Shown here: one piece after another, positions 1-6,625 of the stretch
How positions within the stretch are numbered: position 1 is the first letter of the stretch
Layout: each line of letters starts with the position of its first letter
Program-made: the position numbers and the translations under genes
The notes under the pieces: model-generated
Databases searched by the model: none
The model's input: the letters and a program-made list of their open reading frames with translations, nothing else
What the model was told of the DNA's origin: nothing
From: Candidatus Rokuibacteriota bacterium
GTDB taxonomy: Bacteria; Methylomirabilota; Methylomirabilia; Rokubacteriales; CSP1-6
Reading direction: 5' to 3'
Length of the DNA stretch: 42,821 nt
Assembly: GCA_003220495.1 (NCBI GenBank)
Contig: QHSP01000060.1
Coordinates: forward strand, 1 to 42,821

Positions 1-2
1 AG

Positions 3-110
3 GCGGTTGAGACGCACTCGATGGCGGCGCCGACCCGCGAATTCCGCGACAAGCTCGCGACAATGACGGGCGCCCTCTACGACGAGCGGATGTACCGGGC
101 GATCGACTAG
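3..110 (+). CDS. C-terminal end of an unidentified protein (partial)
   Basis: An open frame enters from the left edge and ends at TAG 108-110. The 35 visible residues end in LATMTGALYDERMYRAID and look like the helical tail of a larger protein. A strong stem-loop follows directly, as expected after a real gene end. I do not recognise the family. The frame could also be fortuitous, because only 108 bases are visible. Confidence 0.4.
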   Translation, partial: AVETHSMAAPTREFRDKLATMTGALYDERMYRAID

Positions 111-145: not shown

Positions 146-167
146 GAATATACCGGTCTGTATATTC
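146..167. promoter_or_regulatory. Perfect 8-bp dyad, operator-like (TetR/AcrR style)
   Basis: GAATATAC (146-153) and GTATATTC (160-167) are perfect inverted repeats around CGGTCT. AT-rich half sites around a CGGT core are typical of TetR/AcrR-family operators. No regulator gene adjoins it. I see no convincing gene between it and the first cassette gene at 366. It may control the cassette array or be left over from a lost gene. Confidence 0.4.
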
Positions 168-365
168 CGTTGCGTTGCGCCGGGTGGTCGGCGAAGTGCG
201 CATCATGGCGAAGCAAATTCATCGTTACCCGACGCCCGCCGGCCGCGCTATGCTGCGAGATATGCTGCAGCGGCGGTGATATGCAGTTCTGTGTAACTAG
301 AAGTTGGGCCGACGAAAGGCCTGGTGAATGGGGAATGCGGAGATCGTCGCCTCTATGAGGGCAAG

Positions 366-785
366 GTGAGCGACGATCCTTTGGTTGTCTTCTTCTTCGT
401 CGCCTCTTGGGGACTGCTAGGGATCGGTGGTTTTTTCCTGTTCTATGTCGGCAAAAACGCCGCGTTTAAGCGACGCTATTTTCCGTGGTTTGCTGGTCTC
501 ACTGGCCTGCTGTTTGTCGGAATCGCCGCGTCTGCGGGCGTGCCGGTTGTGATGCTCGGTATCTTGCTGCTTTTCGCCGCCTTGATCACCTATCTCAGCA
601 TCCGGGGCACGCAGTTCTGTAGCGCGTGCGGTAAGACAGTGTCACAGGAGATACCGTTTCCCGAGCAGAGTTCTGCTCGCGCTGTGGCGCGCCGCTTCGC
701 GACAAGGGGAAGGGCCTGCACGTCCCTTGAACCAGCTGAGCGGCCCAACAAAGCATTGCACCCGCCGGCCTTCGGCCGCGGGTGA
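366..785 (+). CDS. Cassette 1: small membrane protein with zinc-ribbon tail, frameshifted
   Basis: The GTG at 366 is preferred over an upstream GTG at 324 because GAGG lies 5 bases before it. The N-terminal ~80 residues contain about three hydrophobic helices (FFFVASWGLLGIGG..., FAGLTGLLFVGIAA, VVMLGILLLFAALITYL). They are followed by a zinc half-ribbon, QFCSACGK. Near 663-671 the frame slips: in the next frame the sequence reads FCSRCGAPLRDKGKG and stops at TGA 728-730, 12 bases before the attC site. One missing base therefore separates the two CxxC pairs of a normal double zinc ribbon. In the open frame the protein instead continues into the attC palindrome and ends KALHPPAFGRG, which is attC-encoded. 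This is either a recent mutation or a sequencing error. The role of the intact protein is unknown. Confidence 0.65.
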   Translation: MSDDPLVVFFFVASWGLLGIGGFFLFYVGKNAAFKRRYFPWFAGLTGLLFVGIAASAGVPVVMLGILLLFAALITYLSIRGTQFCSACGKTVSQEIPFPEQSSARAVARRFATRGRACTSLEPAERPNKALHPPAFGRG

Positions 786-800
786 ATGCGCGCGTTAGAC
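743..800 (+). other. attC recombination site 1
   Basis: The left box GCCCAAC (743-749) fits RYYYAAC and the right box GTTAGAC (794-800) fits GTTRRRY. Between them, GCATTGCACCCGC pairs with GCGGGTGAATGC, leaving one unpaired G on the left arm. The centre is CGGCCTTCGGCCG. Total length is 58 nt. The extra base on the left arm matches the extrahelical base that directs integrase to the bottom strand. Confidence 0.8.
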
Positions 801-834
801 GGCACTAGTTGCATGTGACGGCTGGGAGGCGACT

Positions 835-1263
835 GTGTCGCTGGCGATGACGAAGCAGGAACGGGAGAGGTTTCTGGCCGATCTTCACGTGGGGATCATC
901 AGTATTCCTGAAGAAGGACAAGGACCACTCACTGTGCCGATCTGGTATTCGTACGAGCCGGGCGGCGAGCTACGAGTCGTAACCGCCAGGACTTCGCGGA
1001 AGGCACAACTCCTCCAGCGTGCTGGCAGATTTAGTCTGTGCGCGCAGACGGAGACCTCGCCGTATAAGTACGTGAGCGTCGAGGGCCCAGTCGTCGCCAT
1101 CGAGCCGGCAGATCTTGAGCGCGATCGGCGCTCCCTCGCGCGCCGTTATTTCGGCGCCGAGCTGGGCGACCGGTACATCGAAAGCACGAGGGACCTCGTT
1201 GGGAACGTACTTGTTCGTATGCGGCCGGAGCGATGGCTTACGGTCGACTACGCAAAGCAATAG
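835..1263 (+). CDS. Cassette 2: pyridoxamine 5'-phosphate oxidase-family (PNPOx-fold) protein
   Basis: A 142-residue protein of the split-barrel flavin-binding family. It opens with MTKQERERFLADLHVGIISI, reads LTVPIWYSYEPGGELRVVTA, and then has the characteristic SRKAQLLQRAGRFSLC and KYVSVEGPVVAIEP segments. Proteins of this type bind FMN, F420 or haem and are usually of unknown substrate. The GTG start at 835 is chosen because GGGAGG (824-829) sits 5 bases upstream; an ATG at 847 is possible. The stop lies 22 bases before attC site 2, so the gene fills its cassette. Confidence 0.85.
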   Translation: MSLAMTKQERERFLADLHVGIISIPEEGQGPLTVPIWYSYEPGGELRVVTARTSRKAQLLQRAGRFSLCAQTETSPYKYVSVEGPVVAIEPADLERDRRSLARRYFGAELGDRYIESTRDLVGNVLVRMRPERWLTVDYAKQ

Positions 1264-1285
1264 CAGTCACGGCGAATGCGAAATC

Positions 1286-1343
1286 GTCTACCCACGCATT
1301 GCAGCCGTCGCGCTTCGCGCGCGGCTGAATGCGATCGTTAGGC
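1286..1343 (+). other. attC recombination site 2
   Basis: It has the same 58-nt layout as site 1. The right box is GTTAGGC (1337-1343). The left box, by alignment, is GTCTACC (1286-1292), one base off RYYYAAC. The arms GCATTGCAGCCG and CGGCTGAATGC pair with one extra G on the left arm, in the same place as in site 1, around a TTC centre. The shared GCATTGCA and TGAATGCG segments show that the two sites belong to one attC family. Confidence 0.75.
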
Positions 1344-1377
1344 TGCTGAATCCGCAACGAGGGAGGACTGACAAGCG

Positions 1378-2178
1378 ATGGACGCGGGCCTTCTGATCAT
1401 TTGCGCGCTTACGTTTGTCATTCATCTGATTGGGACACTTGCGTACTCTGTTCGGATCGCGGGAACGCGCACCCGGCGAATCGCTTTATCGCTGTCGTTG
1501 TTCAACGTACTGATATTGGTGTCTCGGACATCGAACTCGTTCCAGGCGCCGCTCCTCGCGAAACGGGTGGAACAGAACATCGCGGCCGGTGTGACCGGTG
1601 GAGTGGCAGACTTTCGCTGGCTCCTGGCCTTCGCCACGGCCGCGACTCTGATTGGAGCACTGCTCATCCCGACATTTCAGCGACTCTTGTCCCGCTGGGT
1701 CGAGTCTGTCGGGACGGGTCGAGCCCCCATTGCTGTACTGCGACGGGTGGCCTCTCCGGCCGTCCTCGCTCACGTTCGTGAGGCGGCGGCACTGCCACGC
1801 TGGGGCAATATTGCGACGCTTCGTTCAGGCCGCCACCTCCCCTTGAGCGTCGTTGCGCTGAATACCGCCGCTATGGCGGTCTGGTCCGTTGGAGTGTTTG
1901 CGGCGCTGTACGCCGGCTATCTGCGCCCGGAACTCCGCGTGACCGCCAGTCAGATGTCGGCGGTTGTGAACGGAATTGCGACGATTCTGATGTTCGCCTT
2001 CATCGATCCATACCTGTCGCTGATGACGGACGACGTTGCGGCTGGGAAGGTCGGGGAATCGTACTTTCGCCGGTCGGTGGTCTGGCTGACCGGAAGCAGG
2101 CTGGTGGGGACGGTTCTCGCGCAGGTGATCCTGGTCCCGGCGGCTCTTTGGATTGTCGCCCTCGCGGAGTGGTTGTAA
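1378..2178 (+). CDS. amj: Cassette 3: Amj-type lipid II flippase (DUF2837)
   Basis: A 266-residue polytopic membrane protein, close to the ~270 residues usual for Amj. The N-terminus carries the family signature: LTFVIHLIGTLAYSVRIAG, then RRIALSLSLFNVLILVSRTSN and a FQAPLL segment. The C-terminal half has DPYLSLMTDDV, a segment resembling the DPxLSLMTD region of the family, followed by LTGSRLVGTVLAQVILVPAA. Amj moves undecaprenyl-linked lipid II across the cytoplasmic membrane and can replace MurJ in Bacillus subtilis. The ATG start lies 35 bases after attC site 2. No clear Shine-Dalgarno sequence is visible beyond GAGGGAGGA 16 bases upstream. No cell-wall gene is nearby; the context is purely a cassette. 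Transport function is inferred from family. Confidence 0.78.
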   Translation: MDAGLLIICALTFVIHLIGTLAYSVRIAGTRTRRIALSLSLFNVLILVSRTSNSFQAPLLAKRVEQNIAAGVTGGVADFRWLLAFATAATLIGALLIPTFQRLLSRWVESVGTGRAPIAVLRRVASPAVLAHVREAAALPRWGNIATLRSGRHLPLSVVALNTAAMAVWSVGVFAALYAGYLRPELRVTASQMSAVVNGIATILMFAFIDPYLSLMTDDVAAGKVGESYFRRSVVWLTGSRLVGTVLAQVILVPAALWIVALAEWL

Positions 2179-2341
2179 AGTCCGCAAGGCTGGCTTCAAG
2201 CCGTACTCCGAAGCCAGAAAGTTTAACCTTTACGACCTCGAAGTGGTGCTAGAGACATCTGACAGTCCAGTACGGAGCCGCGCAACCTGGCGTGTCCTTG
2301 GTCGCGAAGAAGCGAAAGAATTCGCGGGCTGCAAGCCGTGA
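2153..2341 (+). CDS. Possible small second ORF in cassette 3
   Basis: A 62-codon frame (TTG start) overlaps the end of the Amj gene and stops at TGA 2339-2341, 10 bases before attC site 3. The part beyond the Amj stop reads KPYSEARKFNLYDLEVV and ends EEAKEFAGCKP, which looks protein-like but matches no family I know. It may be the remains of an earlier cassette gene or simply untranslated cassette sequence. It is the only thing I see between 2179 and 2351. Confidence 0.22.
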   Translation: MSPSRSGCKVRKAGFKPYSEARKFNLYDLEVVLETSDSPVRSRATWRVLGREEAKEFAGCKP

Positions 2342-2351
2342 TACTGAGCCA

Positions 2352-2411
2352 GCCGAACAACAGGATGAGCCTGACGGCGATTCACGCCGCACGTTATCCT
2401 GGGCGTTAGGT
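2352..2411 (+). other. attC recombination site 3
   Basis: The left box GCCGAAC (2352-2358) is one base off RYYYAAC. The right box GTTAGGT (2405-2411) fits GTTRRRY. CAGGAT pairs with ATCCTG next to the boxes and GGCG with CGCC at the apex (ATTCA loop), with a mismatched middle. Length is 60 nt. The arm sequence differs from sites 1 and 2, as is common in mixed arrays. Confidence 0.68.
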
Positions 2412-2430
2412 CTCTTCAGCGACCACGCAT

Positions 2431-2859
2431 ATGGAAGACCGGGGCTACGCGCATCCAGATCCCGCGACCAGGCGCCGGGTCATGGCGGTGGCGATCTTTA
2501 GCGGGATCGGTGTGGTTGCGGTAGGCGTCTTGCTGCACAGTGTTGTGCGACCGTGGCTCGACCATTACTTCAGCGCACTCGAGGAATTGGCCAGGCACGA
2601 TCCGATGGCCGCACAGCGAAGTCTGCTCAACGTCATTGCTGTGATGGTCGCGCTGAACGGCAGTGTCGCGTTCGGCGTCGGCACTTGGATCTTCTACAGG
2701 GGCTGGCAGATGGCGCGGGCGGAGCAATGGCCACTCCCCGGAGCGAAGGTGTGCCCGCCCTGGGGTGGAAGACGTATCGCGCCAGCGGCACGTTTTTCGA
2801 TGCACCGAGACCGAGCAATAGGCAGCCGACGGCGCCGGGCGCCGCGGCTGAGAACTTAG
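2431..2859 (+). CDS. Cassette 4: small two-helix membrane protein, unknown function
   Basis: A 142-residue frame starting 19 bases after attC site 3; no Shine-Dalgarno sequence is evident. Residues ~17-40 (VMAVAIFSGIGVVAVGVLL) and ~65-88 (LLNVIAVMVALNGSVAFGVG) are membrane segments. They are followed by WIFYRGWQMARAEQWPLPGA, a cytoplasmic stretch of a type I have seen in small conserved membrane proteins. The last ~40 residues are Arg-rich and run into the attC palindrome, so the true end may have been lost or shifted. Function is unknown. Confidence 0.6.
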   Translation: MEDRGYAHPDPATRRRVMAVAIFSGIGVVAVGVLLHSVVRPWLDHYFSALEELARHDPMAAQRSLLNVIAVMVALNGSVAFGVGTWIFYRGWQMARAEQWPLPGAKVCPPWGGRRIAPAARFSMHRDRAIGSRRRRAPRLRT

Positions 2860-2868
2860 CCGTTAGCC
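2823..2868 (+). other. attC-like site 4 (degenerate)
   Basis: CAGCCGACGGCGCC (2823-2836) pairs with GGCGCCGCGGCTG (2838-2850), with one extra A on the left arm. The right box GTTAGCC (2862-2868) is one base off GTTRRRY. No left RYYYAAC box is clear. The next gene starts 16 bases later, as at the other sites. It is probably a worn attC. Confidence 0.42.
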
Positions 2869-2884
2869 TCCGGAGCGCAGACGC

Positions 2885-3511
2885 ATGACAGTCGAGACAG
2901 GACTTGCCGTGCCAGATGAGGGCCCGCTCAGGCGGCTACTCGAAGCCCTGGAGCACTTCCTGTCCGAAATCCCCGAGACTGACGAATCCGAAGGCCAGAG
3001 TCCCGAAGAGAGGGCACGCGAGATAGCTCGCAGCGCCGCAGTGAAGGCTGCTCTCTTATCGGGCGGCTTGGCCTTGCCGCCGGGACCGCTCGGGTACGCG
3101 ACAATTATTCCGGACCTGGTGGCAATCTGGAAAATTCAGACGCAGATGGTGGCGGACATGGCAGGCACCTTCGGCAAAAAGGCCTTTCTCAGCAGAGAGC
3201 AGATGTTGTACTGCCTGTTCCGCCATGCCGCGGCTCAGGCGATGCGGGACATCGTGATCCGCGTCGGCGAGCGTGTTCTAATTCGCCAGCCCGCGCTCCG
3301 GATCGTTCAGCAAGTCCTGCGACGGATCGGGGTTCGAATCACCCAGCGTCTCGCCGGCGGCGCTATCGCTCGGTGGCTGCCTATCGTAGGCGCCCTCGGC
3401 GTCGGTGCCTATGCGTACTACGACACCGGTCAAGTGGCCGACACTGCGATCGATCTGTTCAGGCGCGAGATCGCCTTCGAGGAGCCTCCGGACGAAGGAG
3501 TGACCGCGTGA
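2885..3511 (+). CDS. Cassette 5: EcsC-like protein
   Basis: A 208-residue protein. After a variable acidic N-terminus (residues 1-45) comes VKAALLSGGLALPPGPLGY, then TIIPDLVAIWKIQTQMVADM and REQMLYCLFRHAAAQ. This pattern of a hydrophobic hairpin followed by a Pro-Asp helix is typical of EcsC-family proteins, which associate with membranes and have no assigned activity. A second hydrophobic segment lies near residues 165-185 (WLPIVGALGVGAYAYY). GGAG upstream is a weak ribosome site. The stop overlaps a possible GTG start (GTGA) of the next small frame. Confidence 0.7.
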   Translation: MTVETGLAVPDEGPLRRLLEALEHFLSEIPETDESEGQSPEERAREIARSAAVKAALLSGGLALPPGPLGYATIIPDLVAIWKIQTQMVADMAGTFGKKAFLSREQMLYCLFRHAAAQAMRDIVIRVGERVLIRQPALRIVQQVLRRIGVRITQRLAGGAIARWLPIVGALGVGAYAYYDTGQVADTAIDLFRREIAFEEPPDEGVTA

Positions 3512-3633
3512 GGAGTAGGCGCTTCTTTGCGACAGTCTGGCGCATCAAGGGCGTTGAAGAAGTTAACGGTACGAGCCTGACAACAGAGGGCCGCACGGGA
3601 CTCTTCGCTACAGACGGCGGCGCCAGGCGGTAA
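3508..3633 (+). CDS. Possible 41-codon ORF coupled to the EcsC-like gene
   Basis: The GTG at 3508 overlaps the TGA of the preceding gene by four bases (GTGA), the usual form of translational coupling, and the frame ends at TAA 3631-3633. The product begins MRSRRFFATVWRIKGVEEV. This resembles the start of a membrane protein whose hydrophobic part is missing, so it could be a truncated gene. It ends 15 bases before the half attC site at 3649. It was too short for a routine ORF cut-off. Confidence 0.3.
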   Translation: MRSRRFFATVWRIKGVEEVNGTSLTTEGRTGLFATDGGARR

Positions 3634-3639
3634 GAGGTA

Positions 3640-4248
3640 GTGCGAGCGGCCCAACAACGGTATCGTGCGCGCCCCCTTCGCGTGCACGCACTTCTACATG
3701 ATGTTGCGCTGGAGGACGTGTGGGCGATTCCGCTTTCGGGCGGCGGCGCCGGTCGCACTGTCCAGGATTTGCGGGCCGTGATGGTCGCGGGGCTCGAGGC
3801 GGCGCCCGCGGTGGTCCAAGGGCTCTTCCGGCTGCGCGGCCGCATCGGCACCCTGTTCGGATGGGATCACCAGCGTCCGGCTTGGAGCGCTGAATCCTAC
3901 GCGGATCGTCTCAGCCCGGCGGATCGCGCCCGGTCCCTGGTCGCTCCGGGGACCCCGGACGGACGCTTCCGCATCCTCTATCGGTTCGAGGACGAGCAGT
4001 TGAGTGAGCTGCGCAACGCGACGGTACACGCCTTCGTATCGCTCTCGATTCGGCCAACACCGGGTGGGTACCTGGCCTACCTGGGCGTCTTCGTGCAGCC
4101 GGTGCATCGGTTCACCAGGCTCTACATGAGAGCGATCGCGCCCTTCCGCCGTCTGGTCGTCTATCCGGCCGTCATTCGAAAAATGCAGAGTGCGTGGGCC
4201 GAACGCTATGGCGGCGAGAACGCGGTCGAGAGTCGGGCGACAGGATAG
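3640..4248 (+). CDS. DUF2867 family protein, N-terminus probably truncated
   Basis: A 202-residue frame. The family features are clear: HDVALEDVWAIPLSGGGAGR, LFRLRGRIGTLFGWD, SYADRLSPADRARSLVAPGT, a FRILYRFEDEQLSELRNAT stretch and the C-terminal YMRAIAPFRRLVVYPAVIR. Family members usually have residues before the first motif, whereas here the GTG start at 3640 gives only ~18 residues encoded by the attC-like DNA. The 5' end was therefore probably replaced where the cassette array joins the chromosome. Function is unknown; some relatives are annotated as SRPBCC-like. It is convergent with the GH31 gene 28 bases away. Confidence 0.7.
   Translation: MRAAQQRYRARPLRVHALLHDVALEDVWAIPLSGGGAGRTVQDLRAVMVAGLEAAPAVVQGLFRLRGRIGTLFGWDHQRPAWSAESYADRLSPADRARSLVAPGTPDGRFRILYRFEDEQLSELRNATVHAFVSLSIRPTPGGYLAYLGVFVQPVHRFTRLYMRAIAPFRRLVVYPAVIRKMQSAWAERYGGENAVESRATG
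3649..3709 (+). other. attC-like site 5 / right boundary of the cassette array
   Basis: GAGCGGCCCAACAA (3645-3658) is identical over 14 bases to the left end of attC site 1 (739-752). The left box GCCCAAC is 3649-3655. GTGCGCGC and GCGTGCAC give a weak stem, and GTTGCGC (3703-3709) is one base off GTTRRRY at the expected 61-nt distance. The right half overlaps sequence coding for the DUF2867 protein. The left half therefore looks genuine, while the right half may be chance or a recombination scar. Confidence 0.42.
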
Positions 4249-4276
4249 CTGCGTCACCGCCGCGCCGGCGTCGCGG

Positions 4277-6625
4277 TCAGCGAATCTCGATCCGTTGCGC
4301 CCGCGCCTTGACGACCACGACGCGGTCGTCGACCGTCCACCCCGCCGCGCTCCGCTCGAGCGCGGCGACGTCGAGCCGGGGAATCGGCAAACCGTCAGCC
4401 GAGATGGATCGGACCGTGAGCCCCTGACGGAGCCTCAGCACGAACGTCGCCGGCGTCGCGCCCGCCTCGAACGTCACCTCGTTGGCCCGACGTCGGCAGC
4501 GCAACGCGACGGTGCCTGCATCGCCGCGTAGCGTGAACGCCCCCTCGTTGGTGACGAACACCTCCACCGTCAATGGATCCGCTGGTCGCTCGCCCACGTG
4601 GCTCCGCTCGGGCCCGAGAACGACGAGGCTCTCGTCCCTGACGTAGAGCGGTAGCTCCTCCAGCGGCACCTGGCGCCGGAGCGTCGTCGGCCCCTCGTGA
4701 ACCGCGCCGTTCCACCAATCCGTCCACTTCCCGCGCGGCAGGTACGTCGTGACCACGCCATCCTCGCGCACGACCGGCGAGACGAGCAGCTCGCGCCCAA
4801 GGCAATACTGCAGATCGAACGCGTACCCGGCCGGGTCGTCGGGAAACTCCATCACCATCGGCCGCATGAGCGGCACGCCGTCCCCGGACGCCTGCCACCC
4901 GTAGCTCACCAGATAGGGCACGAGGCGGCTGCGCAGCCGCGCGTACAAACGAAAAATCCGCAGCGCGTCGTCGCCGTAGCGCCACGGCTCACGCGGCGTC
5001 GCGCCATGGAAGCGGCTCAGCGCCGACAGAAAGCCGAGCTGCGACCAGCGCACGAAGAGCTCGGGGGACGGATCGCCCCAGAAGCCGCCCATATCGTGGC
5101 TCCAGTACGCGAGACCGCTCATCGACGCGGCGAGGCCGCCGCGCAACGTGTTCGCGAGATCGATGAAGGTGCACTCCGGGTCGCCCGACCAGTGGCCGGG
5201 GTAACGCTGGACACCCGGGGCGGCGCTCCGCGACCAGGCCACCACGCGATCGGCGCGGGCGCGCGTAGCCTCGAAGACCTCCTTCTGGAAGAGGAGCGGA
5301 TAGGGATTGTGCAGCTCGGCGCCAGTGAGCCCGTTGGCGAAGACCGCGTCGGTGGGAATCTCCTCGGCGAAATCAGGCTTGAACGAATCGGCGCCGAGGT
5401 CGAGCTGCTCGGTGAGCTTGCCGCGATACCATCTGGCCGCCGCGGGATTCGTGAAGTCGATGATCGCGCAGAGCCCCATGCCCCGCTCGGTCCGCTGGCT
5501 CCAGACGATCGGGTGATACACGCTGCCATCCGGCCGTCGAAGGAAATAGCCGTGGGTCGCGCCTTCGCGATAGAGATCGCTCTGGAGCGACACGTAGGGG
5601 TTGATCCACAGGCAGTTGTGGAACCCTTCCTTGTGAAGCTCGGCCAGGAGCCGCTTCGGATCCGGGATACGGGCCGAGTCCCACTCGAAGTCGCACCACA
5701 TGTAGGCGCGCTGCCAGAACGAATCCAGGTGGAAGACGTCGCAGGGGATGCCCTCGGCGCGCAACCGCCGCGCGACCTCGAGGACCGACGCCTCCGTGAA
5801 CTGGACGAAGCAGGTCGACGCCCACAGACCGAACGCCCACTCCGGAGGCACCGCGGGGCGACCCGTCAGCTCGGTGTAGGTGGTCACGATCTCTTTCGGC
5901 GTGCCGGCGATCAGGTAGTAGTCGAGCTCTTCGCCCTCGGCCTCCACGGTGTACGCGCGGTTCGATCGGCTGCCCAGGTGAAAGCCGACGGCGGTCGGCA
6001 CGTCCACGAAGAGTCCGTAGCCGCGGCTGCCGACGATGACCGGCAGGTTCTTGTAGGCGAGCTCCGACCGCGCGCCGTACGGGTTCCGGTTCCAGATCCG
6101 AACCGTACGGCCGACCAGGTCGAGCCGGCCGAACCGCTCGCCGCTCCCGTAGAAATGGTCGTCGGGATCGAGCAGCAAGGTCTCGACGACACCGCGAACG
6201 CGCCGGGCCGGATCGTGGGAAAGGCTCTCGACCTCGAGCCCGGGGCGCGGCCCGAATCGCTGGCCGGCGAAGTTGGCGTCGTCGTGGACTTGATGAGTCA
6301 AGAGGCGGCCGTCCGGCGTCCGGAAGACGAGCTGCCAGGGGTCGAGGCTCGCCTCGACGACGACGTGGGCGGTGCGCAGCGTGACGCGGTTCGCGCCCTC
6401 GTCGACCGACCACGAACCCGGGTCCGGCCGGCCGACGACGTAGCTGAAGCGCTTGGCGGCCGCCACCGGCCCCGGCGTCGTCCGCACGCGAACGGCGCGC
6501 GGCGCGACCGCGCTCAGCGCCACGCGCGCGGCGGCGAGCGTTTCGGTCACGCACTGAAATTCGATGCCCGTGGCAGTTCGTTCCCAGCCGAGCGCCCTGA
6601 CGATGCCGAGATTGCGCGTCTCCAC
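4277..6625 (-). CDS. GH31 glycoside hydrolase, alpha-xylosidase type
   Basis: A 782-residue retaining alpha-glycosidase. The catalytic barrel runs from about residue 255 (GRPAVPPEWAFGLWAST). The nucleophile is Asp418 in DSFKPDFAEEIP, matching the KTDFGE motif of YicI-type alpha-xylosidases. The acid/base is Asp482 in WSGDPE. An N-terminal beta domain (residues ~1-250) and C-terminal beta domains complete the usual architecture. There is no signal peptide, so it should act in the cytoplasm on imported xyloglucan- or isoprimeverose-type oligosaccharides. The GTG start lies 6 bases after the stop of the upstream sugar permease, so it is the last gene of that operon. Alpha-glucosidase activity cannot be excluded. 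Confidence 0.88.
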   Translation of the reverse strand: METRNLGIVRALGWERTATGIEFQCVTETLAAARVALSAVAPRAVRVRTTPGPVAAAKRFSYVVGRPDPGSWSVDEGANRVTLRTAHVVVEASLDPWQLVFRTPDGRLLTHQVHDDANFAGQRFGPRPGLEVESLSHDPARRVRGVVETLLLDPDDHFYGSGERFGRLDLVGRTVRIWNRNPYGARSELAYKNLPVIVGSRGYGLFVDVPTAVGFHLGSRSNRAYTVEAEGEELDYYLIAGTPKEIVTTYTELTGRPAVPPEWAFGLWASTCFVQFTEASVLEVARRLRAEGIPCDVFHLDSFWQRAYMWCDFEWDSARIPDPKRLLAELHKEGFHNCLWINPYVSLQSDLYREGATHGYFLRRPDGSVYHPIVWSQRTERGMGLCAIIDFTNPAAARWYRGKLTEQLDLGADSFKPDFAEEIPTDAVFANGLTGAELHNPYPLLFQKEVFEATRARADRVVAWSRSAAPGVQRYPGHWSGDPECTFIDLANTLRGGLAASMSGLAYWSHDMGGFWGDPSPELFVRWSQLGFLSALSRFHGATPREPWRYGDDALRIFRLYARLRSRLVPYLVSYGWQASGDGVPLMRPMVMEFPDDPAGYAFDLQYCLGRELLVSPVVREDGVVTTYLPRGKWTDWWNGAVHEGPTTLRRQVPLEELPLYVRDESLVVLGPERSHVGERPADPLTVEVFVTNEGAFTLRGDAGTVALRCRRRANEVTFEAGATPATFVLRLRQGLTVRSISADGLPIPRLDVAALERSAAGWTVDDRVVVVKARAQRIEIR

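Follow-up and report, generated by a model that had tools for sequence, protein, structure and literature searches.

Is the run of unrelated genes at the left end of this stretch of DNA an array of mobile gene cassettes, and if so, what became of the integrase that would be expected beside it? The window analyzed here, 42,821 nucleotides in all, is the start, from base 1, of contig C143 of G000, a 5.98-Mb metagenome-assembled genome (MAG) in 159 contigs. Based on covariance models of attC sites, integrase searches and comparison with related genomes, we consider it highly probable that the window holds a decayed chromosomal integron, which kept its attachment site (attI) and cassettes with no integrase gene (intI) beside them. 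The first-pass annotation, made from the letters of the sequence, had described a cluster of attC sites lacking integron integrases (CALIN). The integrase-less array stands; the annotation had omitted an attI-like site at approximately 149-309 and the fact that the genome has several platforms of this kind.

The host is supported as Candidatus Rokuibacteriota, since the alpha-glucosidase gene adjoining the array is 92% and 91% identical to those of two MAGs so named, AR14 and AR27, in agreement with the earlier suggestion of a Rokubacteria-like genome. Among the relatives compared were the congeners G002, G003, G005 and G006 (AR14), together with G007, and G077 was used as a family-level relative.

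attC sites and the cassettes they bound

Sites were scored using two home-made covariance models. The first, R1, was built from nine attC sites of class-1 integron resistance cassettes, on plasmids only (aadA1, aadB, catB8, catB3, aac(6')-Ib, aac(6')-IIc, VIM-2, dfrA14 and IMP-1), on the canonical attC structure with its extrahelical bases included, and was run unfiltered across the entire window. The second, R2, was built from 37 attC sites of relatives, none of them taken from G000. A box-plus-hairpin scan had been tried and was set aside as too permissive, with many weak candidates, and the covariance models were used instead. The sites are as follows.

743-800, + strand: attC1; R1 40.2 bits, E 2.1e-8; R2 E 2.7e-13
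1286-1343, + strand: attC2; R1 38.0 bits, E 8.8e-8; R2 E 6e-12
2352-2411, + strand: attC3, with a deviant R'' box, GCCGAAC; R1 29.1 bits, E 2.3e-5; R2 E 6e-9
2810-2868, + strand: attC4, with a degenerate left box and an intact R' box, GTTAGCC; R2 E 1.9e-4; R1 core 2822-2850 only, E 0.0028
3642-3656, + strand: left half of a broken attC (R'' plus spacer), GAGCGGCCCAACAAC, which repeats the 5' end of attC1 and is matched by neither model

All model matches in the array are on the + strand. Beyond these four sites the best other R1 match in the whole window had an E-value of 0.57, and R2 found nothing else below 0.05 in the 42.8 kb, the next + strand match being at 0.1. An Rfam scan of the whole window gave no match. 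Because the two independent models agree, the cassette array is supported as real: three strong sites and one weaker site lie between 743 and 2868, within the spacing of at least two attCs less than 4 kb apart that is used for CALINs.

The first-pass annotation fared well on the individual sites. Its sites 1-3 were recovered by both models at 743-800, 1286-1343 and 2352-2411, and the attC covariance search that it had proposed as a check gave three matches with R1 and four with R2. It had counted at least three and probably five sites, of which the three strong ones and the degenerate fourth (2810-2868) hold; the fifth (3649-3709) proved to be only the left half-site joined to DUF2867 coding sequence. 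This candidate passed a simple dyad filter and was matched by neither R1 nor R2 as a complete attC, and from 3664 it is the coding sequence of the DUF2867 gene, 87% identical in G077 (C11). The position 303 at which it had begun the array is likewise no attC: 303-309 is the R box of the attI-like site described below.

In sites 1-3 the R'', L'', L' and R' boxes are all present, and one arm has an extrahelical base. The extra left-arm base claimed earlier was seen in the model alignments and in DNA folds of sites 1 and 2, and the arm motif GCATTGCA...TGAATGCG said to be common to these two sites is indeed present in both (78% identity between 753-803 and 1296-1346). For sites 1-3 a simple dyad test, with shuffled sequence as the control, gave the same answer. 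The attCs of relatives covary, with double changes at 13 pairs and 91% of cells paired versus 24-43% in slid structures, figures that come from an alignment fitted to the model. attC3 recurs in G025, G088, G011 and G050 at 83-91% identity, and the attC3/cassette 4 stretch at 2350-2742 is 81% identical to a part of G003 contig C530 in which R2 calls an attC. Elsewhere in G000, attC matches were found on five other contigs, mostly short or close to contig ends. These matches bound other cassettes, and are thus not the singly scattered palindromes that the first-pass annotation had named as the mark of ordinary repeats.

The DNA between the sites is also found in other places. Positions 775-1347, which comprise cassette 2 and its attC, are 96.5% identical to a stretch between two attCs in G002 (C118), and 793-1343 are 96.2% identical in G005 (C294); attCs surround the copies, and the neighboring DNA is unrelated. 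In other genera of the family cassette 2 is 77-91% identical. The alpha-glucosidase DNA, by comparison, is approximately 82-88% identical among congeners (82% for G000 versus G002), below the 96-97% of cassette 2 in two congeners. The cassettes thus move, each traveling as one unit between attC crossovers. A cassette encoding a GNAT acetyltransferase on contig C80 of G000 is 98% identical in an orphan-attI array of G006 and 97% identical in an intI array of G007. Contig C80 (7144 bp) has four or five attCs and is itself a cassette contig, whose genes encode two GNAT acetyltransferases and two DinB-family proteins as well as a maleylpyruvate-isomerase-like and a glyoxalase-like protein. The GC content of cassettes 1-5 is 60-64% versus 68-69% for the chromosome.

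The attI-like site and the absent integrase

The left boundary of the array and the two flanks are as follows (gene names inferred from sequence).

1-109, + strand: 3' end of an ABM-domain gene (antibiotic biosynthesis monooxygenase-like), left flank
149-309 (approximate start), + strand: attI-like site, with a conserved core at 242-307 and a crossover at 303/304
303-309, + strand: attI R box, GTTGGGC, where the first cassette starts
4277-6625, - strand: alpha-glucosidase-like gene, resident right flank

Over 158 bp, window positions 149-305 share 69% identity with the spacer that runs from the stop codon of the intact intI to the first cassette on contig C50 of G006, and the last 64 bp of this match are 87.5% identical. 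The homology also takes in the DNA behind intI in G003, where the gene is intact, and in G007, where it is frameshifted. As approximately 149-309 matches the attI region that congeners have immediately after their intact intI genes, position 303, at which the first-pass annotation had begun the array, corresponds to the attI crossover, and the attI lies next to the first cassette as in an integron. The crossover is placed at 303/304 because the attI copies are alike up to AAGTT and diverge after it, as expected of a recombination point. Approximately 70-90 bp upstream of the core, at about 149-171, lies a palindrome (AATATAC CGGTCT GTATATT) that precedes most attI copies and may be a further binding site for the integrase or a regulator.

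The array is integrase-less, since both flanks are resident chromosomal genes, no intI lies between them in G000 or in AR14, and the only intI in G000 is a 103-residue stub elsewhere. This was also the claim of the first-pass annotation, and the genome-wide intI search that it had suggested returned the stub alone. Window positions 1-109 encode a stretch 97% identical to the C-terminal 35 residues of a 247-residue ABM protein of G006, and residues 1-124 are on contig C57 of G000. In G006 a single contig (also numbered C57) carries the ABM gene, an attI-like site, two attCs and the alpha-glucosidase gene, with no intI. In G003 the same attI-like site comes after the ABM gene, and after it another gene up to the contig end; the two flanks are on separate contigs there, and the alpha-glucosidase gene again adjoins an array. 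Other congeners have different genes after the ABM gene.

No IntI match was found near the array, and the intI gene of a complete integron was not found in G000. Searches using TIGR02249 and the IntI protein of G006 found a single match in this genome, to residues 1-103 at 96% identity on contig C85, after which come unrelated sequence, a cassette and an attC. The stub has the same SMP-30-like gene for a neighbor as intI has in G006 and G003, where it is intact. IntI was found above the curated cut-off in 21 of the 59 relatives searched, all of the same class, and in the inspected loci with nearby attCs the array is on the strand of intI and follows its 3' end. The IntI of this Rokubacteria group is approximately 52% identical to IntI1. 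The gene is broken at one codon, after LPVVLT (residue ~103), in G000 (C85:40285), G021, G024 and an Aeromonas plasmid, with a different sequence following in each, and G051 has a frameshift at the same LPVVLT position. This break may mark a hot spot of recombination or deletion that has an R-box-like sequence, GTTGACT in the case of G024.

The window attI is one of a family. Its core was found in G000 at C143 (the window), C102:4408, C102:712 (a decayed copy) and C1:187606; in G006 on C57, C9 and C50, the last with intI; and in G003 on C458, C471, C217 (with intI) and C530. The element was found only in genus g1, in a search specific to one IntI subtype. Several of the orphan loci are orthologous: the window matches G006 C57 and G003 C458, C102:4408 matches G006 C9, which carries at least six attCs and no upstream intI, and C102:712 matches G003 C471. 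Cores are 84-97% identical between loci and species, and in orthologous comparisons the core is approximately 89-94% identical versus 79-88% for the flank. Two further copies were noted. The one at C1:187606-187670 looks intact and is followed by a gene, with no attC within 8 kb, and the one at C530:12490-13507 of G003 is followed, in the position of the first cassette, by the gene for a different tyrosine recombinase (36% identical to IntI).

The orphan attI at C102:4408-4470 is informative on how such sites arise. A C-terminal IntI remnant lies at 4151-4267, approximately 140 bp upstream, in two frames (HLLEDGRDICTV, then LGHDDVCTT; tblastn E 0.004), and its distance to attI is that of the intI end to attI in intact loci. 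At least one orphan attI thus arose by decay of a complete integron, and we infer that the window attI was orphaned in the same way.

History of the array

A decayed integron would account for the window as follows. The array consists of the attI (~149-309), five cassettes (304 to ~3656), three good attCs, one degenerate and one half site, and a truncated DUF2867 gene. An IntI tyrosine recombinase would have put circular cassettes into attI via a folded attC strand, as established for integrons, and the local intI would have been lost later. Some species of the lineage keep an intact intI at a second locus, from which arrays of the window type could have been served in trans. With the intI of G000 a stub, the window array is probably frozen today, and this genome seems to have several such gene-capture platforms that are worn out. 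Several observations weigh against this account. No IntI remnant was detected at the window locus itself, so that the local loss is read only from a paralogous locus, and the window attI could instead have been copied without an intI. An intact intI could be unassembled in a MAG of 159 contigs. In G003 a different IntI, slightly broken by one stop codon, precedes the array abutting the alpha-glucosidase gene, and the history of the locus is thus not simple. The models R1 and R2 are also not those of IntegronFinder, and their E-values are rough, having come from a short calibration.

The alternative that deserves most attention is a multi-platform system active in trans, in which one IntI at the SMP-30 locus feeds several chromosomal attI sites and the window array is a satellite and not a dead remnant. 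G006 has an intact IntI and attI on C50 alongside orphan-attI arrays on C57 (two attCs) and C9 (at least six), attI cores have stayed 84-97% identical across loci and species, and the GNAT cassette of G000 is present in both an orphan-attI array and an intI array. A functional IntI can also mobilize CALINs in trans, according to PMC12444791. We nevertheless regard this alternative as the less probable one, although a serious one: a full IntI was not found in G000, one attI copy is decayed (C102:712) and another (on C1) has no attC within 8 kb, the core is only slightly above its flank in conservation, and cassettes held in common are no proof of IntI insertion at orphan sites. A wider form of the idea is a distributed integron in this Rokubacteria genus, in which a single integrase acts in trans on several attI platforms, each with its own array, and the Amj flippase encoded by cassette 3 is a portable bypass of MurJ that protects from MurJ-hitting agents; we hold it to be somewhat more doubtful still.

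Two further explanations can be given much less weight. A complete integron might have been cut by the contig end, with its intI on a neighboring contig, as the window begins at base 1 of its contig, MAG assembly often splits integrons (PMC9024848) and five other G000 contigs carry attCs. The first 109 bases, however, are the end of the ABM gene begun on contig C57 of G000, and in G006 and G003 this gene again stands before the same attI; the broken piece at the window start is a resident gene and not an integron, and such an artifact is very improbable. The specific case of the window array being the other half of the C85 integron is rejected on account of the ABM gene and attI at the left end of the window. 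Chance hairpins, such as terminators or REP-like repeats resembling attC, are common in a GC-rich genome and would suit the many weak hits of the crude box-and-fold scan. With the specific models, in contrast, the claimed sites alone score, all of them on one strand, and these sites bound DNA units found at 96-97% identity in other genomes and flanked there by attCs. This explanation has practically no chance of being correct and is refuted for sites 1-3, while site 4 alone could have arisen by chance. A decayed integron that kept its attI and cassettes is the explanation that we prefer.

Cassette cargo and relation to known integrons

The genes of the array are as follows.

324-785, + strand: cassette 1, small membrane protein with a CxxC motif, reading into attC1 (sub-threshold Zn-ribbon match only)
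835-1263, + strand: cassette 2 (unit 795-1337), pyridoxamine-phosphate-oxidase-like protein (PF12900/PF01243)
1378-2178, + strand: cassette 3 (unit 1338-2405), Amj-family alternate lipid II flippase (PF10997 full length, E 3e-87)
2431-2859, + strand: cassette 4 (unit 2406-2862), small membrane protein
2885-3511, + strand: cassette 5, EcsC-like protein, weakly matching the phage-defence candidates PDC-S30/S29
3657-4248, + strand: DUF2867 gene without a normal 5' end

The DUF2867 gene is a cassette gene in this lineage, with a homolog between two attCs in G002 (C118). The weak match of the EcsC-like protein was the only one obtained with the defence-system models, and no resistance cassette was recognized in the array.

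The Amj protein scored 292 bits against PF10997 (curated cut-off 27) over profile positions 1-252 of 253. It was not found in the 94 other genomes of the class that were searched. Its plasmid relatives, in Burkholderiales, are approximately 55% identical at best, with no attC in the two plasmid neighborhoods checked, and no relatives were found in phages in IMG/VR. B. subtilis Amj rescues E. coli from a MurJ-targeting phage lysis protein (PMC10229422) and can replace E. coli MurJ (PMC12096821). By analogy, the Amj cassette may shield its host against MurJ-targeting agents. Among the titles listed by a literature search on flippases and integrons, there was no paper on a flippase cassette of the Amj kind.

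Among known systems, the array resembles CALINs in having at least two attCs within 4 kb, no intI nearby and unrelated genes on one strand, whereas the recognizable attI that it keeps before the first cassette lies outside the CALIN definition. The CALINs of Xanthomonas located away from ilvD are integrase-less arrays at positions conserved between species, with an intI that has one canonical locus and that some lineages have lost (PMC12444791); the Rokubacteria arrays are preceded by attI copies, of which the relevant passages of that report make no mention for Xanthomonas. In the chromosomal integrons of Treponema (PMC3607928), as in those Rokubacteria relatives that have attCs by their intI, intI is transcribed towards attI and the array and attI lies behind the intI 3' end, a position also seen in archaeal integrons (PMC9668308), although both belong to other phyla. 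The window attCs fit a model made from the resistance cassettes of class 1 plasmid integrons, and the cassettes share their plan of an attC of approximately 60 bp plus one gene. The orientation of intI, in contrast, is opposite in class 1 integrons, and the window array is chromosomal, without recognized resistance cassettes. The Amj cassette may be likened to peptide deformylase cassettes (PMC12690207) in supplying an additional version of a function from an essential pathway, here an Amj that may be able to replace MurJ, the pathway in this case being lipid II flipping.

A literature search combining Rokubacteria or Methylomirabilota with integron, CALIN, attC and attI found no paper on integrons in this phylum. 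The integrase-less attI copies provide natural before-and-after pairs for how integrons die and for whether an orphan attI is still usable in trans, and the Amj cassette would lengthen the short list of essential-pathway functions that are carried as cassettes.

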